The position numbers and the translations under genes are program-made. The notes beneath the pieces are model-generated. The model had not been told where the DNA came from. It worked only from the letters and a program-made list of their open reading frames with translations, and ran no database searches. From a virus, in the IMG/VR virus record IMGVR_UViG_3300050821_001527, positions 1-64,000 of that record: a stretch of DNA of 64,000 bases. One strand, 5' to 3'. Shown piece after piece: positions 3,100 to 15,361 of the stretch (within the stretch, counting starts at the first letter, position 1; each line of letters opens with the position of its first letter).

Positions 3100-3105
3100 C
3101 TGACC

Positions 3106-3303: not shown

Positions 3304-3306
3304 CTT

Positions 3307-3720
3307 ATGATTACTTGGCTGCAAGTCCGAAACGAAATCCACCGCCCCAAAGACTCCTATGACCTTGCTTTCGGCGAGCGTCAAACCATCTGGATGCGCG
3401 GGGAGTGGTCAATCGTTGAACAGATGGGACAATACAACTGCTCCTACATTCTCATGCGTAATTTCGTGCCCCTGATGCACACCGCCCTGCCCGCCGACCT
3501 CGTTCATTACATCAACGCCTTTTGGGATACCCCGGCCATCACGCCCGAAGTCCACGAAGACAACATCGAACGCATAATGCAGACCGCCTGCACCGTTGAA
3601 TGCCCTGTCAGCCGCAAGGAGCAAATCATTCATGTGGTTGGTTTCTATACGGGGTTTTGTTCGGGGCGTGGCTGGACAATCAACTGGCAGAAACTCAACG
3701 CTTGGAAGGACAGGATTTAA
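3307..3720 (+). CDS. Hypothetical protein (137 aa)
   Basis: Not recognised. It starts 3 nt after the preceding stop without a Shine-Dalgarno sequence. Soluble protein with many aromatic residues and four Cys (C45, then CTVEC near residue 95 and C119), but no clear metal-binding pattern. Confidence 0.65.
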   Translation: MITWLQVRNEIHRPKDSYDLAFGERQTIWMRGEWSIVEQMGQYNCSYILMRNFVPLMHTALPADLVHYINAFWDTPAITPEVHEDNIERIMQTACTVECPVSRKEQIIHVVGFYTGFCSGRGWTINWQKLNAWKDRI

Positions 3721-3726
3721 TTTCCC

Positions 3727-3755
3727 TTGACAATCACAATCAACCCTGATAATCT
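3727..3755 (+). promoter_or_regulatory. Early promoter, leaderless layout
   Basis: TTGACA (3727-3732), 17 nt, TAATCT (3750-3755), 6 nt, ATG at 3762. Confidence 0.8.
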
Positions 3756-3761
3756 CACACC

Positions 3762-4181
3762 ATGAACAAAGTCAAAATCACCTATCAAAGCTACGGCTCC
3801 GCGATTCTGTTGTATATCGAAGGAGCGACACCCCAAGACGCCAACGGTCAATACCTGTCCATGTGGAACTGGAATTGCACGTCCAGCAACCCCGACTGGA
3901 TTACCAAGAATGTTCTCGCGGTTTGGTCGAGCGTCGAACGCCTCAAGAAATACCTGCTCACCATGCGCCAGAACGAGCTTGAGGACACCAAGGCCCAAGT
4001 GCCCAACCGCCCGCTGGAAGCCAAGCGTCTCGCTGAACTGGACTTCGCCGGGATTGGCCGTGAGTCCTATCGCTCCGTGAACAACAACACGGAAGTCGCT
4101 GAGTTCGGAACCCCTAACGCCGAGAGGGAAGATTTGGACTTTAAGGATGAGTGTTACAAGGCTGCGTTCGCGTCCACGTAA
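3762..4181 (+). CDS. Hypothetical protein (139 aa)
   Basis: Not recognised. The N-terminal part is Trp/Tyr-rich (YLSMWNWNCTSSNPDW), followed by a Lys/Glu-rich helical region. Its last 41 nt overlap the 3' end of the convergent HNH gene at 4141-4767. The natural end of one of the two proteins may have been replaced when the HNH gene arrived. Confidence 0.65.
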   Translation: MNKVKITYQSYGSAILLYIEGATPQDANGQYLSMWNWNCTSSNPDWITKNVLAVWSSVERLKKYLLTMRQNELEDTKAQVPNRPLEAKRLAELDFAGIGRESYRSVNNNTEVAEFGTPNAEREDLDFKDECYKAAFAST

Positions 4182-4767
4182 GACTGTCGTTCTTCGACAG
4201 GTTATCTTTCTCCCACAGCGGTTGGAGATTGCTGAAATGAAAGCACTCCTTCTGCTGTCGGGGGTCAGATAAGTCGAACGAGGCACAGGGTTTTACGTGG
4301 TCAACATGCCAGTCGCCGTAATTTTCCCATGTCATTCCGAGCTGAAACTGGCCACTAATATGAGCCTTCAACTCAGAAATAGAACAACCAACCAAAGCAA
4401 AGGTTCTGTCGGTCTTACGGGTATTTTGGTCTTTAATCAAACCCCACAGCCTTCGTCGTAAATTCAGGGCGAGTCTATTATGGGGAATGCTTCTATACTT
4501 ACGTTGGTATAATAGATTTTCAAGCTTGATTTGTGGGGCGTGGGATTTTCTGTATTTCTTCCTGTGGGTTTTGATACGTTCGGGGTGGAGCGCGGCGAAT
4601 CGTTTCCAATTTGCGTTGAGTTGCTGTCTGTGGTTCGAGCCATACTCCTTTAAATAAGCAGCATTACAGGATAGGCACTGGGCACCGTAGCCAGATTTAG
4701 TCTTCTTAGTCTTGACGAACTCGTTTTCTTCTTTTAGTGTGTGGCATTTTGTGCAAATCTTCTGCAT
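4141..4767 (-). CDS. HNH endonuclease with zinc ribbon (208 aa)
   Basis: Probable phage homing endonuclease. The N-terminal zinc ribbon is C5, C8, C31, C34 (CxxC-x22-CxxC). A basic helical linker follows, and then the HNH core WENYGDWHVDHVKPCASFDL with His154, Asp156 and His157, plus N180 and N189. A near copy of the zinc ribbon is at 18,577 and a near copy of the HNH core at 23,748. The last ~14 residues after the HNH core run into the 3' end of the convergent gene and are probably not conserved. A late-type motif lies 5 nt upstream of the ATG, so it should be expressed with the virion genes despite its position. Confidence 0.85.
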   Translation of the reverse strand: MQKICTKCHTLKEENEFVKTKKTKSGYGAQCLSCNAAYLKEYGSNHRQQLNANWKRFAALHPERIKTHRKKYRKSHAPQIKLENLLYQRKYRSIPHNRLALNLRRRLWGLIKDQNTRKTDRTFALVGCSISELKAHISGQFQLGMTWENYGDWHVDHVKPCASFDLSDPRQQKECFHFSNLQPLWEKDNLSKNDSLTWTRTQPCNTHP

Positions 4768-4772
4768 ACCTT

Positions 4773-4781
4773 ATATTACAC
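4773..4781 (-). promoter_or_regulatory. Late-type promoter motif GTGTAATAT
   Basis: Read on the minus strand the bases are GTGTAATAT, then AAGGT and the ATG of the HNH gene (4767). It is the same motif as at the head of the late units. Confidence 0.55.
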
Positions 4782-4887
4782 ACGAAAACTGCATAAGGGG
4801 CAAATAATAACAAATGAAAACGCAAATATACCCAAATATGGGATGGGGTGTTTTACGGGGTTGGATAGGGGTCTAATGGGAGGGTGT
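4782..4887. other. A/T- then G-rich spacer
   Basis: Between the HNH gene and repeat element A. An A-rich stretch is followed by a G-rich plus strand (4840-4885). No supported gene. Confidence 0.4.
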
Positions 4888-4955
4888 GTAAGTGCCTGAG
4901 TATCAACGACTTGCGCGGGACGCCCCGCGTAAACCCCTGATTATCAAGGGCTTAC
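4888..4955. repeat. Three-hairpin element, copy A
   Basis: Stem 1 starts GTAAGT and ends ACTTGC, stem 2 is the CGCGGG/CCCGCG-type hairpin, and stem 3 is GTAAACCCC...GGGCTTAC. It follows the three-gene reverse unit 5455-4952. The stop codon of the last gene (4952-4954) lies in the outer arm of stem 3. Confidence 0.8.
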
Positions 4956-5125
4956 AGAAGACATTCGGGAATATCGTCCTCCCCGTAGTGTTTTTTCCAG
5001 TATGCCCACATTAAACGCATGGTCATTTCCGTCATCCAATAGCCATCGTTCATTGCATACCAGACTTTCATGCGTTCCAAACGCTTGAAGTCTTCCGGGT
5101 CGCCGATAAGGTTGGGGTTTACCAT
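4952..5125 (-). CDS. Hypothetical protein (57 aa)
   Basis: Not recognised. Starts MVNPNLIGDPEDFKRLERMK and continues with Met- and Trp-rich helices (MTEMTMRLMWAYWKKHY). The ATG lies within the last codons of the upstream gene (7-nt overlap), so translation is probably coupled. Last gene of a three-gene unit ending in repeat A. Confidence 0.65.
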   Translation of the reverse strand: MVNPNLIGDPEDFKRLERMKVWYAMNDGYWMTEMTMRLMWAYWKKHYGEDDIPECLL

Positions 5126-5322
5126 TTGATTAGGCGGTAGGTTTCAGCAAGGTAGGGGCGGGCACCGCTCGCACCAAGCAAGACGCATACCAGATGAGTG
5201 GGCAAAACCATGTGGACTCTCGCCTTGACGGATTTCCATTCCTGCCCGAAACGGCCCCGGCCATTGGGGATTTGGATTTCCACGATACTGCGGACGCGGG
5301 CTTCTTTATTGGATGTGGACAT
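5119..5322 (-). CDS. Hypothetical protein (67 aa)
   Basis: Not recognised. Basic, mainly beta-like (VEIQIPNGRGRFGQEWKSV, ARVHMVLPTHLVCVLLG). It overlaps the upstream gene by 17 nt and the downstream gene by 7 nt, typical of tightly packed phage genes. Confidence 0.6.
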   Translation of the reverse strand: MSTSNKEARVRSIVEIQIPNGRGRFGQEWKSVKARVHMVLPTHLVCVLLGASGARPYLAETYRLIKW

Positions 5323-5455
5323 AAACGATGTTGCTGTCTTTGCTGATTTTGTAGTTGACGCCGTAGTCCTGCAATTCCTTCACCAGAATAGCAAACCAGC
5401 GGGCTTGCTCAGGCTTGGCAATGTTGAACTCCATTGATTCGTCGCTCTTATTCAT
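5306..5455 (-). CDS. Small hypothetical protein (49 aa)
   Basis: Not recognised. It encodes MNKSDESMEFNIAKPEQARW, then a short alpha/beta sequence ending SNIVYVHIQ. The start is fixed by the promoter 6 nt upstream of the ATG. First gene of the unit 5455-4952. Confidence 0.7.
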   Translation of the reverse strand: MNKSDESMEFNIAKPEQARWFAILVKELQDYGVNYKISKDSNIVYVHIQ

Positions 5456-5461
5456 GGGCAA

Positions 5462-5490
5462 AGAATATCAGATGTGAATAGCCATGTCAA
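5462..5490 (-). promoter_or_regulatory. Early promoter, leaderless layout
   Basis: On the minus strand: TTGACA (5490-5485), 17 nt, TATTCT (5467-5462), 6 nt, ATG at 5455. Confidence 0.85.
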
Positions 5491-5845
5491 GCCCCAATTC
5501 CACCAGTTTGCGCTGCCACATGATTTCATTCAGGGCCGACCATGCGCTATGCAGGCGGGAATGGGGGTGCTGAATGACTTCGCGGTGCAAGTCGTGGACG
5601 TAATCATTCGTGACTGGCTTCCAGCCCACGGACATGCACTGATACCATTGCCCGTCCACTTTCACGCAGTCATTGACCGACAGTGAGCGCATACGATTAC
5701 CGAGGAAGTAATCACACTCGACTTGGGAACCCGCGTTGAACCATGCGAAGACCGCTTCAAGCACTTCCGACGCGGGGCCGGTCAGTGAACAGGTCAGCGT
5801 ATGGTATTTATCGCCGGGATAGCAGACGGTGAAGGTGCGAATCAT
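5468..5845 (-). CDS. Hypothetical protein (125 aa)
   Basis: Not recognised. The ATG at 5845 is preferred over the in-frame ATG at 5908 because it shares an ATGA overlap with the upstream stop codon, a standard coupling arrangement. The protein starts MIRTFTVCYPGDKYHTLTCS and looks like an alpha/beta accessory protein with a compact beta region near FLGNRMRSLSVNDCVKVDG. Its 3' end overlaps the promoter of the next unit. Confidence 0.65.
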   Translation of the reverse strand: MIRTFTVCYPGDKYHTLTCSLTGPASEVLEAVFAWFNAGSQVECDYFLGNRMRSLSVNDCVKVDGQWYQCMSVGWKPVTNDYVHDLHREVIQHPHSRLHSAWSALNEIMWQRKLVELGLDMAIHI

Positions 5846-6132
5846 AGGGTGGGGGCGTTCAGACGTTGTTTGAGGAAAATTTGCCAGTTGTAAACCTGCT
5901 TGTGGCATTCGTCAACCTGACAGACATGGAAGGAGATGCCTTCCGCGCCACTGGAACCGTCGCGGACGCGGACATACCAGCGGTTCATTCCATCTTCGGG
6001 CTTTTCCAGTTTGCCATGCAGACGGATATGGATGCCGTTTCCATCTTCGCAGTCATCGCCAGCGGCGACTTCGACTTCTTGACCGACCAGTTCATTCAGC
6101 TTGGCCAGTATTGCTTCGGGGGTGTTAATCAT
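5842..6132 (-). CDS. Hypothetical protein (96 aa)
   Basis: Not recognised. Starts MINTPEAILAKLNELVGQEV, then a beta-rich acidic sequence including WYVRVRDGSSG. The regular alternation suggests a small beta-barrel or OB-like fold, but this is a guess. First gene of a two-gene unit with a leaderless promoter. Confidence 0.65.
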   Translation of the reverse strand: MINTPEAILAKLNELVGQEVEVAAGDDCEDGNGIHIRLHGKLEKPEDGMNRWYVRVRDGSSGAEGISFHVCQVDECHKQVYNWQIFLKQRLNAPTL

Positions 6133-6138
6133 GGGTAG

Positions 6139-6167
6139 AGAGTATCGGGATTAGTTGTGATTGTCAA
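6139..6167 (-). promoter_or_regulatory. Early promoter, leaderless layout
   Basis: Minus strand: TTGACA (6167-6162), 17 nt, TACTCT (6144-6139), 6 nt, ATG at 6132. Confidence 0.85.
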
Positions 6168-6169
6168 GA

Positions 6170-6367
6170 CTAATTGTGTGCGGGAGAAACTTTCAGGCGG
6201 ATACAGAGCAGCACGTCACCGGGGGAGAGGATGCGCCCGCAGGCCAGTGTCACGAAACTAACCGGATACCATTCGTTGTCACTCAGTCTGGTTTCCAGTT
6301 GCGTGAATGCAGGGTCATACCGAAAAGTCATTGACTCGCCCGCAAGGTTCAAAGTGATTTCTTTCAT
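6170..6367 (-). CDS. Hypothetical protein (65 aa)
   Basis: Not recognised. Small beta-rich protein (MKEITLNLAGESMTFRYDP, WYPVSFVTLACGRI). Single-gene unit with its own promoter. Confidence 0.65.
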   Translation of the reverse strand: MKEITLNLAGESMTFRYDPAFTQLETRLSDNEWYPVSFVTLACGRILSPGDVLLCIRLKVSPAHN

Positions 6368-6373
6368 GGGGTA

Positions 6374-6401
6374 ATAATAGCAGAACCGGGGAGCGTGTCA
6401 A
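6374..6401 (-). promoter_or_regulatory. Early promoter, leaderless layout
   Basis: Minus strand: TTGACA (6401-6396), 16 nt, TATTAT (6379-6374), 6 nt, ATG at 6367. Confidence 0.85.
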
Positions 6402-6428
6402 GATATTTATTGAATTAAATTAACGACG

Positions 6429-6495
6429 CAAGTGACTCTCCATTAACGACTTAGGCGGGACGGCTCCGCGTAACCCCTTGAGCCTCAACGGGTTA
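6429..6495. repeat. Three-hairpin element, copy B
   Basis: A degenerate stem 1 (AAGT...ACTT), a GC hairpin and stem 3 TAACCCCTTGA...GGGTTA. The last arm contains the stop codon of the SleB-like gene (6493-6495). The next promoter is 28 nt away. Confidence 0.75.
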
Positions 6496-6867
6496 GCGGT
6501 AGAACGTGGTGTGGTCAATCGTCATCACCGGCTTTTTGTGCAGCTTGCCCTCGAAGTAGGCTTTATCCATCGGGCCACCCCAATATTTGCAGCCGCCCGT
6601 GGGGTCATGCTTGTCCGATTCATACCAAGCGTTCCACGTCTGGACGAAAACCCAGTCGGGTTCGCTTTTGATATGCTTGGCCGTGCCACCATAGACGCCC
6701 TTGAGGTTGCCGCGTGTTCGGATGACGGCGCAAATGGCAATCTTGCACTTGTAGGACTCACCCGCCGCCTCACCCACGACAGCGTTGACGACTTTATGAG
6801 AGTCCAGTTCGGCGAAGGCGGAATTGACCGCCAACGCCATCAGGATTATGAGCGCGATGCGTTTCAT
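6493..6867 (-). CDS. Exported SleB-like cell wall hydrolase (124 aa)
   Basis: Probable endolysin that cleaves peptidoglycan. An N-terminal signal peptide (residues 1-19, ending NSAFA) is followed by a compact hydrolase domain with GEAAGES around Glu33, then AICAVIRTRG and later KGVYGGTAKH, DPTGGCKYWGG and a C-terminal DHTTFYR. This follows the SleB/CwlJ (hydrolase_2) pattern, in which the Glu of GEA is catalytic. The export signal suggests Sec-dependent release. It is coupled to the upstream gene by an ATGA overlap, and its stop codon lies in repeat B. No holin was identified next to it. Confidence 0.8.
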   Translation of the reverse strand: MKRIALIILMALAVNSAFAELDSHKVVNAVVGEAAGESYKCKIAICAVIRTRGNLKGVYGGTAKHIKSEPDWVFVQTWNAWYESDKHDPTGGCKYWGGPMDKAYFEGKLHKKPVMTIDHTTFYR

Positions 6868-7133
6868 CGGGCAACGTAGTGTTCACCAAACACTTGCTTG
6901 AGCGTTTCGGCGGGGCCAAAGGTGCTGAACGCATTGAACTTCTGACTGCCCTTGTAATCCCAAACGCCACAGCGAACGCCGTCCACGGTGAAGCCCCATG
7001 AGTTCTTAACCTTGTCCGGGTCATCTTCGCAGTTGGCCTTGAAACCGAGTCGCTTGACGATTTCGGCAACGGTGATGTTTTGCAGACCGCCCGTTCGGGA
7101 GTCTCCGGTTTGATTGACTGGTTTGATAATCAT
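6864..7133 (-). CDS. Conserved-looking phage protein (89 aa)
   Basis: Not assigned. Sequence character is that of a small soluble phage accessory protein: NITVAEIVKRLGF, then SWGFTVDGVRCGVWDYKG and FSTFGPAETLKQVFGEHYV. It precedes and is translationally coupled (ATGA) to the SleB-like lysin, so a link to lysis control is possible but not shown. Confidence 0.7.
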   Translation of the reverse strand: MIIKPVNQTGDSRTGGLQNITVAEIVKRLGFKANCEDDPDKVKNSWGFTVDGVRCGVWDYKGSQKFNAFSTFGPAETLKQVFGEHYVAR

Positions 7134-7139
7134 GGGAAT

Positions 7140-7168
7140 AGAATAGCGGGATTAAACCGGCTTGTCAA
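7140..7168 (-). promoter_or_regulatory. Early promoter, leaderless layout
   Basis: Minus strand: TTGACA (7168-7163), 17 nt, TATTCT (7145-7140), 6 nt, ATG at 7133. The stop codon of the upstream gene lies inside it. Confidence 0.85.
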
Positions 7169-7706
7169 GCACAATTTTCAATTCATCCACGCAGCACAAC
7201 AACTGCGCTCGCACGTATTTGAACAAGTCCGGGTCGCCGTCCACCAAGTTGGGCAACACGCGGGCCTTTTCCTTGATATACGTGACGGCAAAACCGGGGT
7301 CATGCTGCACGATGGAATTGGTGTTGTTATACAAGTCGGCCAGCTTGATTTTCTTGGCCGATTTGCCGATGGTGGCCAAGCGAGCCGCTTCCAAGACTTT
7401 TCTCTCCATGCGGTTCAAGTCCGGGTAATTCTGCGGCGTGTATAAGTCGGTCAACTCATGCACAATCAGAGCAATTTCGGTGCCAAACTCGCGCTCCAAC
7501 TGCCCGAAAGTCGTTTCGGTATCTTCCAAGGTATCGTGCAAGTGCGCGGCGGCGATTTCGGTTTCGGTGCCACCGTAAGCAGCAACTATGCCAGCCACCG
7601 CATCAGTATGCGTCCAGTATGGGGTGCCGTCATACTTGCGGACTTGTTTAACCGCGTCATGGGCGGCGTGTGCGAAGGCTTGCGCTCTGGTAATCAAATC
7701 AGTCAT
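7152..7706 (-). CDS. HD-domain (p)ppGpp hydrolase, MESH1/SpoT-like (184 aa)
   Basis: Likely removes the 3' pyrophosphate from the alarmone (p)ppGpp or a related nucleotide. The HD fold motifs match the SpoT/MESH1 hydrolase pattern: His33 in PYWTHTDAV, HLHDTLEDTETT with His57-Asp58 and Glu61-Asp62, then KIKLADLYNNT with Asp124. There is no synthetase or regulatory domain, and the length is that of small alarmone hydrolases. It is a single-gene unit with its own leaderless promoter (-35 TTGACG). Substrate specificity is inferred from the motif pattern. Other HD nucleotidases are possible but fit less well. Confidence 0.8.
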   Translation of the reverse strand: MTDLITRAQAFAHAAHDAVKQVRKYDGTPYWTHTDAVAGIVAAYGGTETEIAAAHLHDTLEDTETTFGQLEREFGTEIALIVHELTDLYTPQNYPDLNRMERKVLEAARLATIGKSAKKIKLADLYNNTNSIVQHDPGFAVTYIKEKARVLPNLVDGDPDLFKYVRAQLLCCVDELKIVLDKPV

Positions 7707-7712
7707 ATTGAT

Positions 7713-7741
7713 ATACTAGCCTGTTAGACGGCTGGCGTCAA
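7713..7741 (-). promoter_or_regulatory. Early promoter, leaderless layout
   Basis: Minus strand: TTGACG (7741-7736), 17 nt, TAGTAT (7718-7713), 6 nt, ATG at 7706. Confidence 0.85.
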
Positions 7742-7760
7742 GGATTATTTTGCATCCATA

Positions 7761-7825
7761 ACCTGTTGATTACCAGCCACTTGCGCGGGACACCCCGCGT
7801 AAGTCCCTCTCCGAAAGGAACTTAC
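7761..7825. repeat. Three-hairpin element, copy C
   Basis: Stem 1 is weak. Stem 2 is GCGGG-ACAC-CCCGC. Stem 3 is GTAAGTCC...GGAACTTAC. It lies between the reverse unit 8243-7834 and the promoter of the HD hydrolase (19 nt away). Confidence 0.75.
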
Positions 7826-7833
7826 GTTGGCTG

Positions 7834-8049
7834 TTAAATGAAGCGCGAGAGGAACGCCCCCACCCACGCGGGCCAGCTAAAGGCCACAAAGAAGAACACC
7901 GCAACCAGAGCGATGAACCTGACAACGCGGGAACGGTTGCCGAAGTCGCGTTTTTCGAGGGAGTTGATTGCCGTGAATCCGACCACCGCGCCGATGAGCA
8001 GGTAAAACAGGGCGAAGGCGAACAGGATGGGGAATAGGTATTGTGTCAT
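7834..8049 (-). CDS. Small membrane protein (71 aa)
   Basis: Two predicted membrane segments: FPILFAFALFYLLIGAVVGF (6-25) and FIALVAVFFFVAFSWPAWVG (about 45-64), separated by a basic loop. It is coupled to the upstream HicA-like gene by an ATGA overlap. Holin is a possibility from size and topology, but the gene is not next to the lysin, so I leave it unassigned. Confidence 0.65.
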   Translation of the reverse strand: MTQYLFPILFAFALFYLLIGAVVGFTAINSLEKRDFGNRSRVVRFIALVAVFFFVAFSWPAWVGAFLSRFI

Positions 8050-8243
8050 AAGGTTTCGAGGTTAAGGTTCCAATTTTGTTTGGCGAATCTGCGTAGCGGG
8101 TGCAATCCACGTTCGCCGACATGGAAAGAGTAAAACGGTTGCTTGGTATCGGGCGGGTAGATTTTGACCGTGGACGCCTTTGTATAGTCCAAACGGAATC
8201 CCTGCCGTGCGAGTGCTTTTAGTAACTGCGGAACGTCTTTCAT
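8046..8243 (-). CDS. HicA-like small RNA-binding protein (65 aa)
   Basis: The pattern LLKALARQGFRLDYTKAST, a short beta hairpin (VKIYPP), then FYSFHVGERGLHPLRRFAKQ resembles the compact alpha-beta-beta-beta-alpha HicA fold found in toxin-antitoxin mRNA interferases and in many phage orphans. The usual catalytic His of HicA sits on the first strand after a Gly; here that position is not clearly conserved. No HicB antitoxin gene is adjacent: the partner is a membrane protein. So it may be a binding-only relative. Confidence 0.45.
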   Translation of the reverse strand: MKDVPQLLKALARQGFRLDYTKASTVKIYPPDTKQPFYSFHVGERGLHPLRRFAKQNWNLNLETL

Positions 8244-8249
8244 GGTGTA

Positions 8250-8278
8250 AGAGTATAGGGCTATTGCCCGGTTGTCAA
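8250..8278 (-). promoter_or_regulatory. Early promoter, leaderless layout
   Basis: Minus strand: TTGACA (8278-8273), 17 nt, TACTCT (8255-8250), 6 nt, ATG at 8243. Confidence 0.85.
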
Positions 8279-8282
8279 GGGA

Positions 8283-8792
8283 TTAAATGTCCAGATAGAG
8301 GCAATCGTAATCCACGACAATCGGCAACAGCGAGCCATCCAGAATCAACAGATTCTCGCGGTGCAAATCCCAGACGGTAATGCCCGCCTCCTCACACCTT
8401 TTGACGATTTCGCTTTTCATGGCGTAAAAGAATGTGTCATGTTCGCAACTCCAACCAAGCTGGATTGCCTTGACGAAACGGCAGACCAGCGCATACCCCT
8501 TGGAATGAATCCAGTAAACCTTGGGCGTCAGTGTGCGGTAAACGGGATTGTCCAACAGGGGCTTGACTTTCTCGTTAAACGCCGTGCTGCTGATTTTGAT
8601 GACGAAACGGCCAATGCGGTAGCAGTAGCTATAGGCACCGCTGGCAAAGAATTTCAACCCCTGACTTTCCAGCCATGCGCGGGCAGTGTCTTTGAAGTTG
8701 TATGTGTCCTCGATTTGAATGGATTCGAGATGCGCGATGATGCGCTTAATCCGAAGGCGGGTGCTGGTTCCGGGCGTAGTGTTGTTATTCAT
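8283..8792 (-). CDS. Protein-kinase-fold protein (169 aa)
   Basis: Reads as a minimal kinase-like domain. A Gly/Ser/Tyr loop (FASGAYSYCYRIG, 49-61) is followed by FVIKI with Lys66 in the position of the ATP-binding lysine. LTPKVYWI...GYALVCRFV resembles the hinge region. WDLHRENLLI has Asp142 and Asn147 as in the HxDxxxxN catalytic loop, and VVDYD (Asp161) stands for the metal-binding DFG. At 169 residues it is much shorter than a full kinase. It may phosphorylate a host protein or a small molecule, or be an inactive kinase-like fold. Single-gene unit with an early promoter. Confidence 0.65.
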   Translation of the reverse strand: MNNNTTPGTSTRLRIKRIIAHLESIQIEDTYNFKDTARAWLESQGLKFFASGAYSYCYRIGRFVIKISSTAFNEKVKPLLDNPVYRTLTPKVYWIHSKGYALVCRFVKAIQLGWSCEHDTFFYAMKSEIVKRCEEAGITVWDLHRENLLILDGSLLPIVVDYDCLYLDI

Positions 8793-8798
8793 GTGAAG

Positions 8799-8827
8799 AT
8801 ATTAGTTGAATAATCGCACCGTGTCAA
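8799..8827 (-). promoter_or_regulatory. Early promoter, leaderless layout
   Basis: Minus strand: TTGACA (8827-8822), 17 nt, TAATAT (8804-8799), 6 nt, ATG at 8792. Confidence 0.85.
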
Positions 8828-8859
8828 GGGAATATTTTGCATAAATGAATCAATCTTCA

Positions 8860-8926
8860 TAAGTGTTTGAGGCGCAGGCACTTGCGGCGGGCCACCCGCG
8901 TAACCCCCTGAGTTGCAGAGAGTTAC
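8860..8926. repeat. Three-hairpin element, copy D
   Basis: Stem 1 is AAGTG...CACTT, stem 2 GCGGG-CCA-CCCGC, stem 3 GTAAC...GTTAC with an inner CTG/CAG. This copy follows a predicted non-coding transcript, not a protein gene, which shows that the element does not depend on a stop codon. Confidence 0.8.
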
Positions 8927-9119
8927 GAAACTAGCGCCGTCACGACCTACGCCGTCCCCTCCGGTGTTATCCAGAGGACGGGAGTTGCACCCGTCTTATC
9001 ACGACAATTTCTTTAAATTGGTGGAGACTATCGCGCCCCGCTACGCCGGATTTTTACCGGAAGGTGCTACATTTTGGCTACAGTCTTGAAACATTTTGCC
9101 TACAGTCCGCACTCTCAAC
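8927..9119 (-). ncRNA. Candidate structured RNA 1
   Basis: A sigma70-like promoter (9126-9153) reads into about 190 nt without a convincing ORF; the longest start gives only ~24 codons. On the minus strand the RNA would contain two 17-nt direct repeats, a CCGG-TAAAAAT-CCGG hairpin, a perfect CAATTT-AAAG-AAATTG hairpin and a GACGGG-TGCAACT-CCCGTC hairpin, then run into repeat D. The last hairpin resembles a tRNA T-arm, but no matching acceptor stem was found. Ends are inferred. Confidence 0.5.
9069..9107. repeat. 17-nt direct repeat inside candidate RNA 1
   Basis: ACATTTTGGCTACAGTC (9069-9085) and ACATTTTGCCTACAGTC (9091-9107) are identical at 16 of 17 positions and are spaced 22 nt start to start. 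Confidence 0.7.
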
Positions 9120-9125
9120 ATCTAT

Positions 9126-9153
9126 ACTCTAGCAGATTATTTTAATCTGTCAA
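9126..9153 (-). promoter_or_regulatory. Early promoter of candidate RNA 1
   Basis: Minus strand: TTGACA (9153-9148), 16 nt, TAGAGT (9131-9126). No ORF begins at the expected position, so the product is probably RNA. Confidence 0.65.
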
Positions 9154-9164
9154 GAAAAATCATG

Positions 9165-9386
9165 CCGTATTATCGTTTAATGTCGCCCCGGCTGGGGATT
9201 GTCCTAGCGCATTATGTATAAGGGGACAGCCCATGCTCGCTTCAAAGTCCCGCCACATTCTCTAGGTCAGACAGTTGGTTTTTGTGACCGCGTTTAACCG
9301 CCTGTATCGAGTCCCTACTGACCGATTACCACGCCACGCGAGGCATCATTGTTCATCTACTTACCCGATACCACCCATAACCAACT
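9165..9386 (-). ncRNA. Candidate structured RNA 2
   Basis: The predicted transcript starts at about 9386 with AGTTGGTT, which pairs perfectly with AACCAACT further along the minus strand (plus-strand arms 9379-9386 and 9273-9280). Nested inside is a second long-range stem, GTATCG/CGATAC (9366-9371 with 9304-9309). The 3' part has a CCCC-AGCC-GGGG hairpin and a GTCC/GGAC pairing. The first ATG gives only five codons. The nested stems and the start of the transcript at the first paired base argue for a folded RNA. No match to a known family was recognised. The 3' end is a guess. Confidence 0.55.
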
Positions 9387-9392
9387 ATAAAG

Positions 9393-9420
9393 ATACTAAC
9401 AGATTTGCCCGGAACGTCAA
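9393..9420 (-). promoter_or_regulatory. Early promoter of candidate RNA 2
   Basis: Minus strand: TTGACG (9420-9415), 16 nt, TAGTAT (9398-9393). The predicted start 6-7 nt later is the first base of the AGTTGGTT stem. Confidence 0.7.
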
Positions 9421-9428
9421 GAACTATT

Positions 9429-10118
9429 TTAAACTTTCTCAACTGTCGGCTTGAGCCATATCCCGCGCTCACCCAACAGGCCGAACAAATCAAATTCATC
9501 CAGCAAGCGCAGAGCCTTGCCCGTGTCAGCGGCGAACATCTTCAAGGATTCTTCGCGGATACGCTCGGTTGAGACGTTCGCAAAGTGCTTGTAATTACAG
9601 CAGAACCCGTGCATGGCATTGGCCGTATTGCGCTCAATCCTGAATCCCTTGGTAATGGCGAAACGGATTGCACGAATCACGCGCAACGCATCTTCCCCGA
9701 AACGCACACGCGGGTCGCCTACACAGCGAATCAGTCTGTCCGTAATGTCTTCAATCCCCTTGTGCGGGTCGAGAACATCGAACTCGTTCGCGGCGTTTAC
9801 GGCAATCGCGTTCATCGTGAAGTCACGACGGGCGAGGTCATCAAAGATTGTGCCAATCGTGACGCTCTCAGGGCGGCGACCGTCGGTATAACAGCCATCC
9901 TTACGACAAAGGACGTAATCTGCCGAGCCGAGTGCGGGGACGTTGGCACGTATAGTGAAAAATTCGGGTGTTTCGAGGAAAATCTTTCCCCCGAGCGCAA
10001 TAATCGTTTCGCGCATGGAATCAAACGAAGGGGCTTCAACGGCGAAATCCATATCCTTGGACTTGACGCCCAAGAATGTATCTCTCACACTTCCGCCCAC
10101 TCTGAAAATCTTATTCAT
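9429..10118 (-). CDS. CCA-adding enzyme / poly(A) polymerase-like nucleotidyltransferase (229 aa)
   Basis: Class II tRNA nucleotidyltransferase-like head domain. IFRVGGSVRDTFLG (4-17) is the GGSVRD nucleotide-binding motif, and KDMDFAVE has the metal-binding DxD (Asp22, Asp24). RRDFTMNAIAV is the next signature, and RCVGDPRVRFGEDALRVIR, with IRAIRFA, is the conserved neck. At 229 residues it keeps head and neck but lacks most of the body and tail (family members are about 400 or more). It could repair or tag tRNA ends, or polyadenylate RNA, during infection. No phage tRNA was found in this window. The promoter lies 7 nt upstream of the ATG. Confidence 0.85.
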   Translation of the reverse strand: MNKIFRVGGSVRDTFLGVKSKDMDFAVEAPSFDSMRETIIALGGKIFLETPEFFTIRANVPALGSADYVLCRKDGCYTDGRRPESVTIGTIFDDLARRDFTMNAIAVNAANEFDVLDPHKGIEDITDRLIRCVGDPRVRFGEDALRVIRAIRFAITKGFRIERNTANAMHGFCCNYKHFANVSTERIREESLKMFAADTGKALRLLDEFDLFGLLGERGIWLKPTVEKV

Positions 10119-10125
10119 TCCACTT

Positions 10126-10154
10126 ATCCTATGGGATTAGGCCCGAACTGTCAA
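10126..10154 (-). promoter_or_regulatory. Early promoter, near-leaderless
   Basis: Minus strand: TTGACA (10154-10149), 17 nt, TAGGAT (10131-10126), 7 nt, ATG at 10118. Confidence 0.8.
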
Positions 10155-10378
10155 GGATTTATTCGCTTGGTGTAGGATTTGATATAGGGTTTCAGGTCAG
10201 AGGCAATAGACGCGGCAATCGCGTCAACTTCACCTTGACCGGCAGAATGGCCGCGTTCGTAGGCAGCGAATTCAATGTATTGAATGAATTCGGGCGGCAA
10301 GTCGTGATATTCAGCCTGCTTCCGTGCTGCGGCGTCCGCGTCCGCTTTGTCAACCATCGCTTGTAATTCTTTAGTCAT
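10151..10378 (-). CDS. Hypothetical protein (75 aa)
   Basis: Not recognised. Helical and Ala-rich (KADADAAARKQAEYHDLPPE), with a second helix FAAYERGHSAGQGEVD that is common in small phage proteins. Its stop overlaps the -35 region of the CCA-like gene promoter. Confidence 0.65.
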   Translation of the reverse strand: MTKELQAMVDKADADAAARKQAEYHDLPPEFIQYIEFAAYERGHSAGQGEVDAIAASIASDLKPYIKSYTKRINP

Positions 10379-10384
10379 GCTTAG

Positions 10385-10412
10385 AAGATAGCAGAATTTG
10401 CACCATTGTCAA
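10385..10412 (-). promoter_or_regulatory. Early promoter, leaderless layout
   Basis: Minus strand: TTGACA (10412-10407), 16 nt, TATCTT (10390-10385), 6 nt, ATG at 10378. Confidence 0.85.
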
Positions 10413-10422
10413 GAACTATATC

Positions 10423-10485
10423 TCGTTGTCCATCAAGGACTTGCGCGGGTGCCCCTGCGTAACCCGTTGTGGCTCAGTGGGTTAC
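10423..10485. repeat. Three-hairpin element, copy E
   Basis: Stem 3 is clear: GTAACCC-GTTG...CA-GTGGGTTAC. Stem 2 is shortened and stem 1 weak. It lies between the winged-helix gene and the next promoter (10 nt away). Confidence 0.75.
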
Positions 10486-10497
10486 GAGGTTTGCCGC

Positions 10498-10830
10498 TTA
10501 CAGCGAGAACCAGTAGCGTTTGCTGTGGCCGGTGCCGGTGAACTTGATTGCGCCGGAATTGCGGAGTTGCTTGACAGTTTGGGTGAGGGTATGGCGGGTG
10601 TAGGTGGTATAGCCGGATTCCTGAATTGCCGTTTCGATTTGCGTGACCGTCATCCCTTGGGCCTTGCGGGTGGGGAGGACATTAACGACGAGCTTTTGCA
10701 GCGGGAACGGATTGCGGGGCAACTGGCAGTTGGTCGCCCCCACCGTCCGATAGTTGGCGCGGAGATTGTCGGCGATGGTGAGGATTGCGGAGATGACGTT
10801 GGAATTCAGACCGAGCGTGTTGTTTTTCAT
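10498..10830 (-). CDS. Winged-helix DNA-binding protein (110 aa)
   Basis: Probable transcription regulator. The C-terminal half (about residues 58-110) reads as a winged helix: MTVTQIETAIQESGYTTYT, a recognition-helix-like HTLTQTVKQLRNSGAIKF, then a wing ending SKRYWFSL. It is one of the few early genes with a 5' leader (about 40 nt). That leader contains the inverted repeat AGGC-N6-GCCT, so autoregulation through an operator or RNA hairpin is plausible. Confidence 0.65.
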   Translation of the reverse strand: MKNNTLGLNSNVISAILTIADNLRANYRTVGATNCQLPRNPFPLQKLVVNVLPTRKAQGMTVTQIETAIQESGYTTYTRHTLTQTVKQLRNSGAIKFTGTGHSKRYWFSL

Positions 10831-10851
10831 ATTCGTTATTTTTCTTCTGTC

Positions 10852-10865
10852 AGGCGTGATTGCCT
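10852..10865. promoter_or_regulatory. Inverted repeat in leader of the winged-helix gene
   Basis: AGGC (10852-10855) and GCCT (10862-10865) flank GTGATT, a few nt downstream of the predicted start site. Candidate operator or mRNA hairpin. Confidence 0.4.
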
Positions 10866-10876
10866 TTGATGTAGAA

Positions 10877-10904
10877 AGAATAACAGAATTTTGTTTTGAG
10901 TCAA
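10877..10904 (-). promoter_or_regulatory. Early promoter with leader
   Basis: Minus strand: TTGACT (10904-10899), 16 nt, TATTCT (10882-10877). The ATG of the winged-helix gene is 46 nt past the -10 box. Confidence 0.75.
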
Positions 10905-10941
10905 GGTATTTATCGAATTTTATTGAAGTATTTTTCGAGAC

Positions 10942-11009
10942 ACAAGTTGTTGACTATCAAGGGTTTGCACGGGACGCCCCGCGTAACCTCCTCTGTGGCA
11001 AGGGGTTAC
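10942..11009. repeat. Three-hairpin element, copy F
   Basis: Stem 1 has TTGACTATCAA at its tip, stem 2 is CGGG-ACGC-CCCG, stem 3 is GTAACCTCCT...AGGGGTTAC. It lies between gene 11257-11030 and the winged-helix promoter. Confidence 0.75.
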
Positions 11010-11029
11010 GGGGTTTGTTTCAGCAGGTT

Positions 11030-11257
11030 CTATGCCACCTTGCGGGCCACGCTCTTGATGTCAGCAAGGTAGGTGTCGCCATATTCCCCGTCCGGGCACA
11101 TGGGGGACGTGACGAAACAAAAGACGCGGGCGAAGGGATTCGCGGCCTCTTTGTCAGGGGCTTGATAGTGTTTCAGGACTTTCCACGTCCACGAACCGTT
11201 AGACCACGTTTCGTAAGGATTGGAAACCGGGCGGGTTTTGGCACATTCGTTTTTCAT
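11030..11257 (-). CDS. Trp-rich phage accessory protein (75 aa)
   Basis: No function assigned. The segment NPYETWSNGSWTWKVLKHYQ followed by APDKEAANPFARVFCFVTSP and EYGDTYLADI has the look of a small family common in phages; I cannot name it with certainty. Single-gene unit ending in repeat F. Confidence 0.65.
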   Translation of the reverse strand: MKNECAKTRPVSNPYETWSNGSWTWKVLKHYQAPDKEAANPFARVFCFVTSPMCPDGEYGDTYLADIKSVARKVA

Positions 11258-11263
11258 GGTGAG

Positions 11264-11292
11264 AGGATAGCTGTTTAGTTACGGGTTGTCAA
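11264..11292 (-). promoter_or_regulatory. Early promoter, leaderless layout
   Basis: Minus strand: TTGACA (11292-11287), 17 nt, TATCCT (11269-11264), 6 nt, ATG at 11257. Confidence 0.85.
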
Positions 11293-11295
11293 GGT

Positions 11296-11724
11296 TTATT
11301 TCACACTCCAAAGCGGGACGGTGAAGTCATCAGCGAATTTGTGTTTGTTAGACCACGATTCACGCGACAGGAAAACGCCGACACATTGAGCCGTGGCGAT
11401 GCGTTTGGTGACTTCCTCACGGATGATTCGCAGCGTGTTACCGGAGCAAATCAGGTCATCAATGATGATATATCGCTCGCTGGATTCAACCCCTTCAAGA
11501 TTGGAGCCGAAATGGTTGCCGTCATCCTTGCGAACCATGAGCATATTCTTTTTGAGCTTCATGGCGATGATGGGGGCAATCAACGCCCCGGACATTCCAC
11601 GAAAGGCGATTGCATCAAACTCAACTTCGGAATCCTTAATGAGCTTGACCAGTTTGGTTACGGTTTCCGGCAACCGGGCAACGTCAACCAGATGTTTCAG
11701 ATAGTCAGAACGAATGGCGGGCAT
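11296..11724 (-). CDS. Phosphoribosyltransferase, type I (142 aa)
   Basis: Transfers or removes phosphoribosyl groups using PRPP. The PRPP-binding signature is RYIIIDDLICSGNTL (about 84-98), preceded by FDAIAFRGMSGALIAPIIA, the helix-strand of the type I PRTase fold, and a flexible-loop segment MLMVRKDDGNHFGS. The ATG at 11724 is chosen because it follows the stop of the upstream gene by 4 nt; the in-frame ATG at 11757 lies inside that gene. The substrate base is unknown. Adenine or orotate types are possible. Confidence 0.8.
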   Translation of the reverse strand: MPAIRSDYLKHLVDVARLPETVTKLVKLIKDSEVEFDAIAFRGMSGALIAPIIAMKLKKNMLMVRKDDGNHFGSNLEGVESSERYIIIDDLICSGNTLRIIREEVTKRIATAQCVGVFLSRESWSNKHKFADDFTVPLWSVK

Positions 11725-11728
11725 AGTA

Positions 11729-11899
11729 TTAGGAGAGTTGGTTTTCGATTTCGACAATCACGTTGCGGTGCTGGGAAATGCCAACGTGTTTTTCCATCAC
11801 CAGAAAACGCTCGATGGAACCATAGGACACGCGGCCAGTGAAGACCTTGCGGTATTTTACGCCGCCCAATTTGTAAACCAGAATGGTGTTTTTATTCAT
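11729..11899 (-). CDS. Small hypothetical protein (56 aa)
   Basis: Not recognised. Starts MNKNTILVYKLGGVKYRKVF and continues as a small beta-rich protein. The promoter is exactly 6 nt from the ATG, and the phosphoribosyltransferase follows after 4 nt, so the two form one unit. Confidence 0.7.
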   Translation of the reverse strand: MNKNTILVYKLGGVKYRKVFTGRVSYGSIERFLVMEKHVGISQHRNVIVEIENQLS

Positions 11900-11905
11900 G
11901 TGTAA

Positions 11906-11934
11906 AGAGTATCGGAATTGTTTGCGGTTGTCAA
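11906..11934 (-). promoter_or_regulatory. Early promoter, leaderless layout
   Basis: Minus strand: TTGACA (11934-11929), 17 nt, TACTCT (11911-11906), 6 nt, ATG at 11899. Confidence 0.85.
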
Positions 11935-11942
11935 GGAAAATT

Positions 11943-12293
11943 TCAGCCGTAAATTACTTCACCAAAGGCGGCGAGTTGGGCAAAGGCGTCGAAGTCGAAG
12001 GCGTCAGACTGACAAAGCCAGTTGTCCCAATCTTCCCAGTTGGCACTGAAAGGCGGTTGCGTCAAACCCTTGGGCCATTTGGTAGGGTCGAACAGCAGCG
12101 GGAACGCGGCAATCAGTTTGGCCTTGTCCAAGTCATAGGTTTTGCCGTCCTCCGTGTCCACAAATTCAAATTCCATCTTCTTATAATCCCAGCCACGGCA
12201 TTTCAGCGTCATACCGGCTTCGGGGTGGTTGTCCATGATGGCGCGGACAATCTTTTCAACGGTTTCGTCAGGGATGACTAAGGTAATATTCAT
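11943..12293 (-). CDS. Hypothetical protein (116 aa)
   Basis: Not recognised. An N-terminal alpha/beta segment (ITLVIPDETVEKIVRAIMDN) is followed by an acidic, Trp-rich C-terminal part (WEDWDNWLCQSDAFDFDAFA). Such acidic aromatic tails occur in DNA-mimic or inhibitor proteins, but there is no direct evidence for that here. Confidence 0.65.
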   Translation of the reverse strand: MNITLVIPDETVEKIVRAIMDNHPEAGMTLKCRGWDYKKMEFEFVDTEDGKTYDLDKAKLIAAFPLLFDPTKWPKGLTQPPFSANWEDWDNWLCQSDAFDFDAFAQLAAFGEVIYG

Positions 12294-12299
12294 GTGTAG

Positions 12300-12328
12300 A
12301 GATTAGCGGATTGATTACCGCTTGTCAA
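12300..12328 (-). promoter_or_regulatory. Early promoter, leaderless layout
   Basis: Minus strand: TTGACA (12328-12323), 17 nt, TAATCT (12305-12300), 6 nt, ATG at 12293. Confidence 0.85.
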
Positions 12329-12329
12329 G

Positions 12330-12641
12330 TTAAAAATCTTGGTTAATTGTGTTCAAATCGGCTTGCCAGCGGGCTAACCTGTCGCCTGCTTTTCTCAGGG
12401 CAATGCAAGCGGCCATGTGGGGATGTTTATGGGTCGCCTGAAATGATATGGCTTCGCCCAAGCTAACCGAAAAATGAAAATCAGTATCGTCATACAAACT
12501 GCATGAGATATGACACTTGCCCCTTGTCCAAGTCGCGTTGACGTTGCTGTCATCGGGCAATTTAATGCAGTTCATTTGCCACCCGTCGCCCAAAGTGGCA
12601 CGAATGCGGCTATCACGTTTCATGGCAGTTTCCAATGTCAT
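12330..12641 (-). CDS. Hypothetical protein (103 aa)
   Basis: Not recognised. Helical start (MTLETAMKRDSRIRATLGDG) followed by a beta-rich centre (CHISCSLYDDTDFHFSVSLG) and a helical end. Single-gene unit. Confidence 0.65.
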   Translation of the reverse strand: MTLETAMKRDSRIRATLGDGWQMNCIKLPDDSNVNATWTRGKCHISCSLYDDTDFHFSVSLGEAISFQATHKHPHMAACIALRKAGDRLARWQADLNTINQDF

Positions 12642-12647
12642 AGGGAT

Positions 12648-12675
12648 AGAGTATCAGAGTTTAAGGGATTGTCAA
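12648..12675 (-). promoter_or_regulatory. Early promoter, leaderless layout
   Basis: Minus strand: TTGACA (12675-12670), 16 nt, TACTCT (12653-12648), 6 nt, ATG at 12641. Confidence 0.85.
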
Positions 12676-12681
12676 GCTTTC

Positions 12682-12748
12682 TAAGTCGTTGACTATCAGG
12701 CACTTGCGCGGGGCGTCCCGCGTAAACAGTTGACTATCAACAGGTTAC
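12682..12748. repeat. Three-hairpin element, copy G
   Basis: Stem 1 is TAAGTCGTTGACTATCAGG plus CACTTGC, stem 2 GCGGGGCGTCCCGC, stem 3 GTAAACAGTTGACTATCAAC plus AGGTTAC. The outer arm contains the stop codon (12745-12747) of the adjoining gene. The next promoter is 6 nt away. Confidence 0.85.
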
Positions 12749-13029
12749 GCTCTCAACTGCGCCCAAACTTCGTGGGCAATCTTGATGGACTTGGCATAGA
12801 TTTTACTCTTGTGGGCCGCACCGGAGCAATTTTCATTCACCCATTGAATATCCTGCGCGTCAAGCATCAGGCAAACTTCATCCATGATTGCCGCCTCAAT
12901 CGTGCTTTCAATCCACAGGGCGAAGTTGTCAACGTGATTGACCAGCGCACGGAGTTTGGCTTCGGGATGTTTCAGAGCAGCTTTCTTGCCAATCTGCATC
13001 AACTGGGCTTCGTATCTTTCAGCGTTCAT
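12745..13029 (-). CDS. Hypothetical helical protein (94 aa)
   Basis: Not recognised. Almost all helical (MNAERYEAQLMQIGKKAALK, then IESTIEAAIMDEVCLMLDAQ). Overlaps the 3' end of the upstream small gene by 11 nt. Confidence 0.65.
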   Translation of the reverse strand: MNAERYEAQLMQIGKKAALKHPEAKLRALVNHVDNFALWIESTIEAAIMDEVCLMLDAQDIQWVNENCSGAAHKSKIYAKSIKIAHEVWAQLRA

Positions 13030-13147
13030 TTTGACCTTTGTGTTTGGGGTGGCGGGTGTAAGCCTTTTTGCTTTTGACGATACGGGAAGCGGGATTGAAG
13101 TCCCATTGTTTCCGAACCGATTTTATGATTGAGATTTGCTTACTCAT
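13019..13147 (-). CDS. Small basic peptide (42 aa)
   Basis: Not recognised. Very basic: MSKQISIIKSVRKQWDFNPA, then Lys/Arg-rich KSKKAYTRHPKHKGQNER. The start is fixed by the promoter 6 nt upstream. May bind nucleic acid. Confidence 0.65.
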   Translation of the reverse strand: MSKQISIIKSVRKQWDFNPASRIVKSKKAYTRHPKHKGQNER

Positions 13148-13153
13148 AGGCAA

Positions 13154-13181
13154 AGTGTATCAGGTTTCGTCAGGTTGTCAA
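13154..13181 (-). promoter_or_regulatory. Early promoter, leaderless layout
   Basis: Minus strand: TTGACA (13181-13176), 16 nt, TACACT (13159-13154), 6 nt, ATG at 13147. Confidence 0.85.
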
Positions 13182-13185
13182 GGGA

Positions 13186-13221
13186 AAAGAAAAAACCCGT
13201 CACGCTCCGAACGCGACGGGT
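13186..13221 (-). terminator. Intrinsic terminator (minus strand)
   Basis: On the minus strand ACCCGTC (13221-13215) pairs with GACGGGT (13201-13195) with inner CG pairs, followed by a T-run. It ends the gene at 13242-13610. It is the only clear intrinsic terminator I found among the reverse units. Confidence 0.85.
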
Positions 13222-13241
13222 CAACTACGGCCTAATTTCGC

Positions 13242-13610
13242 TTAGGCGGCGGCAGGTTGTGCGGTGAGTGTTTTGGCGTGGGTCTTGTAGCCTTCCGGCG
13301 ACAGAACCGCGAAACCGGAGAAACGAACCTTGCGGACGCGGGAAAAGCGGAACGTCAGATATTCCTTGTCGCGGCTCGTATCAATCGCGGTAAACACCGC
13401 ATTGCCCGCCGCCGAAGTCCACTTGTGGGTAACGGGGTGGCCGATGACGTTGTAACGCTGGACGGGAAGATTCGGGTGGCGGGAATCAGCCGGGGCGTAG
13501 GTCACGCGGTAGGTGGGAATGAAACGGTAGCCATTGGCGAGCATGGTGCCGAGAACGGCGAGGCCGATGATGAGCAGGAGGATGGAACTGATTAGGAGGT
13601 TTGGATTCAT
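13242..13610 (-). CDS. Membrane-anchored protein (122 aa)
   Basis: N-terminal membrane segment LLISSILLLIIGLAVLGTML (about 5-24), then a basic, mainly beta soluble domain (FIPTYRVTYAPADS, YLTFRFSRVRKVRFSGFAVL). No function recognised. It differs from its neighbours in having a ~36-nt leader and an intrinsic terminator. Confidence 0.65.
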   Translation of the reverse strand: MNPNLLISSILLLIIGLAVLGTMLANGYRFIPTYRVTYAPADSRHPNLPVQRYNVIGHPVTHKWTSAAGNAVFTAIDTSRDKEYLTFRFSRVRKVRFSGFAVLSPEGYKTHAKTLTAQPAAA

Positions 13611-13652
13611 GTTATTTTATTGTCTTTCGTTTGTTGTTTAACTTATGTGAAA

Positions 13653-13681
13653 AGATTATCAGGTTTGGCAACCGTTGTCAA
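13653..13681 (-). promoter_or_regulatory. Early promoter with leader
   Basis: Minus strand: TTGACA (13681-13676), 17 nt, TAATCT (13658-13653). The position where ATG normally sits reads ATA; the actual ATG is 42 nt past the -10 box. Confidence 0.75.
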
Positions 13682-13687
13682 GGGATT

Positions 13688-13897
13688 TCAGTAAGAACCA
13701 TACCCGAAAACAGTAACCACTTCGCCCACACGGTTTTCACAGTCCGCGCCGTTTGCGGCGTTTTCCTTGGTGATTCTTCGATTGGTCTGGAAATTGATTG
13801 TGCGTGGTTCACCGCCGCCATTCCAACCGTCCAAAATCATTACGTCACGGTCAGCGGGGAGTTTTTGTAAAAGTTCGATAAGGATTGATGCTTTCAT
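13688..13897 (-). CDS. Hypothetical protein (69 aa)
   Basis: Not recognised by name. MKASILIELLQKLPADRDVM resembles the opening of small phage proteins with a LPxDxxV pattern; the rest is Asn/Gly-rich (GWNGGGEPRTINF). Single-gene unit with a weaker promoter. Confidence 0.6.
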   Translation of the reverse strand: MKASILIELLQKLPADRDVMILDGWNGGGEPRTINFQTNRRITKENAANGADCENRVGEVVTVFGYGSY

Positions 13898-13903
13898 GCG
13901 TTA

Positions 13904-13932
13904 AAGATAGTCGAAACGCCACGACCAAACAA
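13904..13932 (-). promoter_or_regulatory. Early promoter, weak -35
   Basis: Minus strand: TTGTTT (13932-13927), 17 nt, TATCTT (13909-13904), 6 nt, ATG at 13897. Spacing is kept although the -35 box is poor. Confidence 0.6.
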
Positions 13933-13968
13933 GGAAACAATCTCGCTATAGTTATTCACATTCCCTCC

Positions 13969-14006
13969 ACTTGGCACGGCTCCCGCTAAAGCACAATCCA
14001 TGCCAT
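13969..14006. repeat. Extra imperfect hairpin before element H
   Basis: TTGGCACGGCTCCCGCTAAA and CCATGCCA form an imperfect stem with a long loop. The first arm is shared with 15,422-15,444 (TTGGCAYGGCTCCYGCTARA). Confidence 0.45.
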
Positions 14007-14009
14007 CCA

Positions 14010-14075
14010 TAAGCCCTTGACTATCAACGACTTGCGGGGTTCCCCCGCGTAACCCATTGGTAATCAACGAGTTAC
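14010..14075. repeat. Three-hairpin element, copy H
   Basis: Stem 1 is AAGCCCTTGA-CTA-TCAACGACTT, stem 2 GCGGGGTTCCCCCGC, stem 3 GTAACCCATTGG...CGAGTTAC. It follows the three-gene unit 15079-14084. Confidence 0.8.
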
Positions 14076-14083
14076 GGGGATGA

Positions 14084-14320
14084 TTAAGTTTGCTGAATGC
14101 GCCTGATTAGGGCGGCTAAGGCGCGTCCCTCAAAGTTCTCAATCGGTTCGCGCAGACTACGCCCGTCAGTTGTCGAATGATTGCACTTGTCGGCGAAGTC
14201 GGCGAACAGCAGGGGCTTTGCCCAGTCTTCGGCAAAGTTTTTTCTGTCCCATCCGTCCGGGTCAAGAATGTGAATGCCGAGCAACTCACACCACGTTTCA
14301 GGCTGTAGGTAGATTTTCAT
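14084..14320 (-). CDS. Hypothetical protein (78 aa)
   Basis: Not recognised. MKIYLQPETWCELLGIHILD, then aromatic and acidic helices. Its ATG shares an ATGA overlap with the stop of the 26-residue membrane peptide gene. Confidence 0.65.
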   Translation of the reverse strand: MKIYLQPETWCELLGIHILDPDGWDRKNFAEDWAKPLLFADFADKCNHSTTDGRSLREPIENFEGRALAALIRRIQQT

Positions 14321-14397
14321 TTGTGTTTCCTCAGTTCGTAAAGGAAGATTGCGCCAAAGATTAGCGCAACCCCTAGCGACAGGTAAAAGTAAAGCAT
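14317..14397 (-). CDS. Short membrane peptide (26 aa)
   Basis: MLYFYLSLGVALIFGAIFLY then ELRKHK: one hydrophobic helix with a basic C-terminus. It is 4 nt after the gp88-like gene and coupled by ATGA to the next gene, which supports translation despite its size. Confidence 0.55.
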   Translation of the reverse strand: MLYFYLSLGVALIFGAIFLYELRKHK

Positions 14398-14401
14398 ACG
14401 T

Positions 14402-15079
14402 TTAGGCGACTACAAACCCAGTCGCATCAGCTTTCGCCTTGCCCTTCATAGACAGGCCGACAATGACACCGCGAGCGTCCAGAAAACGCAAATCGTTTTC
14501 GTCCCCGGAAACAACCGGCTTGCCCAAGTAAGACGCGGGCAATTCATTTCGGAAAACAACCGCGATGTTTACATTTTGCGCGGCCAGCTTTTCAACGTCA
14601 GCCTGATTGCTTTCCGAACGGGAAAAGGTCAGGTTATAGTTTGCGGGCAACTTGCCAGCGGCGAACATGCCAGCACGAAACGGATTTTTCGTGTAATCGT
14701 AAAAGTTGACCGTGGGGAATTTGTCCATGAATCCGAACCTTTCCCAAGCAACATCAGAGAGGACATTAAGGCGGATTGCCAGCTTTTTACCAAGCTTGCC
14801 AGCCTTGCGGACACCCGCCGCAATTTCCTTTTCCAGCATGGCGAGAAATTCCGCTTGGCGCTCGTTAAAGAATTTGGCTTTCGCAATACGAGCCGCTTGC
14901 ACGTTGGGGAATACGCCCATGCCGGAAGTATTCAGGCAGGCAGCAGCGCAACCCGCAGAGGCATGGGGGCAAAGATTGCGCCCGGACAAATTGAACGGCG
15001 CAAGCGACAAGCCAAGCGTAAAGTAGCCTAGCGACTCGCCTTTAAGCAGTTTGGTGTTATTGGGGGATAGTAATTTCAT
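14402..15079 (-). CDS. gp88-like conserved phage protein (225 aa)
   Basis: Resembles the phage 'gene product 88' family. An N-terminal part with Gly/Leu-rich FTLGLSLAPFNLSGRNLCPH is followed by a Cys cluster (C37, C44, C48 in NLCPHASAGCAAACLNTSG), then KAKFFNERQAEFL and a C-terminal alpha/beta region (LAIRLNVLSDVAWE, VNFYDYTKNPF, YNLTFSRSE). The Cys cluster and repeating beta-alpha units suggest a metal or cluster-binding barrel; the biochemical role is not known to me. First gene of a three-gene unit. Confidence 0.65.
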   Translation of the reverse strand: MKLLSPNNTKLLKGESLGYFTLGLSLAPFNLSGRNLCPHASAGCAAACLNTSGMGVFPNVQAARIAKAKFFNERQAEFLAMLEKEIAAGVRKAGKLGKKLAIRLNVLSDVAWERFGFMDKFPTVNFYDYTKNPFRAGMFAAGKLPANYNLTFSRSESNQADVEKLAAQNVNIAVVFRNELPASYLGKPVVSGDENDLRFLDARGVIVGLSMKGKAKADATGFVVA

Positions 15080-15087
15080 GTGGGGAG

Positions 15088-15325: not shown

Positions 15326-15361
15326 ATATTGTTATACTGTTATTGTTTTATTGACTGCGTA

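Follow-up and report, generated by a model that had tools for sequence, protein, structure and literature searches.

Phage-encoded small and non-coding RNAs are a known general kind of transcript. The orphan unit described here resembles them in having its own predicted promoter, no ORF, and a predicted structured 5′ part; it differs from them in that it has no Rfam sequence or structure match, no defined 3′ end, and no identified target or chaperone site. Leaderless transcripts offer a second point of comparison: a review lists phage phiYS40 of Thermus as an example (PMC3594737), and the AR9 paper states that such transcripts are often found in phages (PMC5312081). The early genes around our locus likewise have start codons that coincide with the predicted 5′ end, a likeness that serves as context only and implies no relationship to those phages. 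In contrast, the orphan promoter breaks that layout.

Early promoters of the record and their predicted leaderless layout

We analyzed bases 1 to 64,000 (the window) of IMGVR_UViG_3300050821_001527, a virus record of 202,882 bases. The pattern TTGAC...TANNNT gives 63 matches on one strand of the record and 51 on the other, versus 12 and 16 for a reversed control. As a comparison set, we used 68 TTGAC promoters from the window's first 18.3 kb (635 to 18109) and four other stretches of the record (L121 to L124). In 42 of the 68, an ATG lies exactly 6 nt past the −10 box and so coincides with the predicted +1; it is the first ATG in 39 of those, while in the other three an earlier ATG occurs at offset 1. 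The genes concerned are predicted to be leaderless, mostly with one promoter per gene, and this promoter layout is a firmer by-product of our analysis than the RNA-gene reading developed below. The same ATG spacing was seen in part in the related contigs L013 and L117. Two spacer styles were also apparent: GAAA is often present in the spacers of plus-strand promoters at 108 to 202 kb, and the minus-strand promoters at 5 to 17 kb have spacers without it.

An early promoter facing a non-coding gap

One promoter of this class lies on the minus strand within a gap of 636 bases, in a region that is otherwise dense in genes. The gap and its borders contain the following features.

8283 to 8792: unassigned gene, at one flank of the gap
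8860 to 8927 (about), minus strand: copy of a three-hairpin intergenic element, the likely end of the gene-free unit (putative 3′-end role)
9126 to 9153, minus strand: second promoter, TTGACA-16-TAGAGT, with only a 26-codon frame downstream
9386, minus strand: predicted +1 of the orphan promoter, placed by the spacing seen for ATG in 42 of the 68 promoters
9393 to 9420, minus strand: orphan promoter, an early sigma-70-type consensus match (TTGACG-16-TAGTAT) of the same class as 67 others
9429 to 10118: gene for a CCA-adding enzyme (tRNA nucleotidyltransferase; PHROG and Pfam matches), at the other flank

The orphan promoter is predicted from its consensus and belongs to a class enriched in the record. 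It consists of TTGACG (9420 to 9415) and TAGTAT (9398 to 9393) separated by a 16-nt spacer, and its −10 box is preceded by TG, as in extended −10 promoters. The predicted +1 is the seventh base past the −10 box, the position at which leaderless genes carry the A of their ATG; here, unlike in 42 of the 68 promoters, there is no ATG. The original prediction had described an early-type promoter with no ORF behind it, and this description holds: counting from start codons within 75 nt of the promoter, the longest frame has 13 codons, the shortest of all 68. Against the record's own promoter layout, this promoter is a true outlier.

Codon usage is not gene-like in any frame of the gap, and stops interrupt every one. 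Two candidates, a 32-codon frame at 9258 to 9160 and the 26-codon frame after promoter 9153, score −0.246 and −0.235 for codon usage; true early-gene stretches have their 5th percentile at −0.10, and both values fall below it and within the wrong-frame range. Although both frames are present, neither has a well-spaced ribosome-binding site, and the 32-codon frame starts away from +1, unlike the other early genes. A small protein encoded by either frame is thus very improbable, and on codon usage we reject a small peptide from the interval that had been proposed as the transcript (9165 to 9386). These controls within the record lend good support to the view that the early promoter has only non-coding sequence downstream, and promoter and absence of coding are both direct results of computation.

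Pairing of the predicted 5′ end

A perfect pairing of the first eight transcribed bases some 106 nt downstream, around a second nested stem, had also been proposed. Both stems were recovered by computation, and their arms are as follows.

9379 to 9386, minus strand: 5′ arm of the outer stem, AGUUGGUU (AACCAACT), 8 of 8 paired
9273 to 9280, minus strand: 3′ arm of the outer stem, AACCAACU (AGTTGGTT), 8 of 8 paired
9363 to 9371, minus strand: 5′ arm of the nested stem, GUAUCGGGU, 8 of 9 paired, with six core pairs at probabilities of 0.94 to 0.99
9304 to 9312, minus strand: 3′ arm of the nested stem, ACUCGAUAC, 8 of 9 paired with 9363 to 9371
9273 to 9386, minus strand: 114-nt domain closed by +1 to +8, z −2.8, its ends set by the stem

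The arms of the outer stem are 98 nt apart (106 nt from start to start), and its pairing probability is 0.93 when 222 nt are folded and 0.81 when 527 nt are folded. Among the 68 promoters, only this one has a perfect 8-mer match from +1, the next longest match being 6. The mean pairing probability of its first eight bases, 0.94, is likewise the best of the set (next, 0.80; median, 0.37), so that the least-coding promoter also has the best-paired 5′ end, a coincidence of ranks with a probability of about 1/68. A perfect match to the first eight bases arose in 41 of 20,000 dinucleotide shuffles. Since the case was picked for its pairing, this rate of 0.002 per promoter must be set against 68 promoters, giving about 0.14 expected occurrences, which makes the match suggestive without being decisive. 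Taken whole, the 222-nt interval is no more stable than its shuffles (z +0.28 and +0.30); the extra stability is confined to 9273 to 9386, boundaries that were chosen by the stem.

Searches for known families and relatives

No Rfam family matched the interval at the gathering threshold, and a permissive search up to an E value of 10 gave a single weak match, outside the interval (17.1 bits versus the 40 required); known RNA families are ruled out on this basis. A tRNA or tmRNA is ruled out as well, since ARAGORN with introns allowed found none in the interval. Nothing similar was found in named phages, and the sole other copy detected is an identical contig, which provides no covariation. Searches by blastn, covariance models, and exact patterns found no counterpart in the searched records related by terminase (53 to 76% identity) or by the CCA-adding enzyme (31 to 55%); this absence is weak evidence, since most of these records are fragments or distant. 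At one dense leaderless locus found via the CCA-adding enzyme (L013), coding frames follow that gene in place of an orphan unit.

Within the record, no convincing alignment linked the unit to the other gene-free units. A motif of TAGTCTCC plus hairpins shared by the transcripts from promoters 9153 and 186203 was unsupported, as 164 of 200 shuffles scored as high. The latter promoter, which has no ATG at +1, precedes a second gene-free unit of about 450 nt at record positions 186,238 to 186,689 on the plus strand (L122 6239 to 6690), with no Rfam match. A further gene-free stretch, at 187,240 to 187,515 on the plus strand (L122 7241 to 7516), has ends that form an 8-bp acceptor-like stem adjoined by a T-arm-like hairpin, GCAGGTTTAAATCCTGC; neither Rfam nor ARAGORN matched it, and it is possibly a tRNA-like RNA. 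The record also has 27 tRNA matches overall, including an array at 116,682 to 131,150, and a tmRNA with the tag ANKVALRNAVDCGVVRGFAAFAMA at L121 1119 to 1502.

Extent of the candidate transcript

No terminator-like site was found on the minus strand between 8000 and 11000, including near 9165. The defined 3′ end of a phage small RNA, such as an intrinsic terminator, is thus lacking here, although the end may lie at a signal of another kind. Behind promoter 9153, a gene-free unit terminates in one of 11 copies of the three-hairpin element. Because there is no terminator and because this unit runs to the element, we consider it more likely that an RNA starting at 9386 would end near 8860 (about 530 nt) than at 9165 (222 nt).

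The 11 copies of the element lie between early genes at window positions 4889 to 17405 (for example, 12682 to 12748 and 8860 to 8926). In helix 1, pairing reaches 90%, and 6 of the 11 pairs show changes on both sides; the structure as a whole has a covariation score of 0.186, versus 0.142 for shuffles and 0.063 to 0.105 for slid versions. The arms of hairpin 3 are often mismatched within one copy yet match the arms of other copies.

Two further minus-strand elements were observed within the second gene-free unit. A direct repeat, GACTGTAGGCAAAATGT / GACTGTAGCCAAAATGT, occupies its start (9066 to 9106), and a T-arm-like hairpin, GACGGGTGCAACTCCCGTC, lies at 8977 to 8995, with a weak match, far under threshold, to a Tymovirus tRNA-like family.

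Interpretation of the orphan unit

Three origins deserve comparison for a promoter that faces no gene. Our preferred reading, held tentatively and unproven, is a non-coding RNA gene specific to the phage, in which the first eight bases close the 5′ end. It can draw on a parallel within the record: promoter 116433 on the plus strand likewise has no ATG at +1, and the first tRNA of the array sits about 220 bases downstream, which makes RNA genes behind such promoters plausible here. The main rival is a gene relic. Under this view, a leaderless early gene once stood between the gene for the CCA-adding enzyme and its present neighbor, decayed after losing its start codon, and left its promoter behind; the pairing would then be due to chance. 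Elsewhere in the early region, almost every promoter has a gene behind it, the 636-bp gap stands amid dense coding, and the fold of the whole interval is unremarkable, all as a relic would predict. Yet no frame retains gene-like codon usage, stops cut every one of them, and the 5′ pairing is the best of 68 promoters; we regard a relic as unlikely.

Alternatively, the gene at 8792 could receive long 5′ leaders from promoters 9420 and 9153 as a further layer of regulation beyond its leaderless promoter, with the fold as leader structure. The strand is the same, and no terminator-like site intervenes from 9386 to 8792. However, that gene has its own promoter at 8827 with an ATG at the predicted +1, the three-hairpin element lies in between, and leaders this long are not typical of the record, which leaves this explanation distinctly unlikely.

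Of the stable small RNA originally proposed, the non-coding unit stands, as does the strongest +1-anchored pairing of the 68; the end near 9165, where no terminator was found, and the stability of the whole interval find no support here. From these features we infer the transcription, 3′ end, stability, and function of the candidate RNA. If the unit is indeed an RNA gene, transcription by host RNA polymerase would begin at 9386, driven by the same class of promoter that serves the leaderless early genes, and the first eight bases would fold onto 9280 to 9273, closing the 114-nt domain. Burial of the 5′ end in this stem may hinder 5′-dependent decay, and its closure may stop 30S subunits from accepting the transcript as a leaderless message. 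The RNA would probably run past 9165, cross the second gene-free unit, and reach the three-hairpin element at 8860, and the product would act as a structured RNA, not as a message. A more specific proposal, which we consider a long shot, takes 9386 to 8860 as a new structured phage RNA with two domains, one closed at +1 and one containing the T-arm-like hairpin, followed by the three-hairpin 3′ element; made early and encoded beside the CCA-adding enzyme, it would perhaps interact with tRNA-handling enzymes.

If made, the RNA would be an early non-coding RNA of a large uncultured phage. Moreover, given the leaderless layout seen at 42 of the 68 promoters, looking for promoters that lack an ATG at +1 offers a practical search for RNA genes in such phages.
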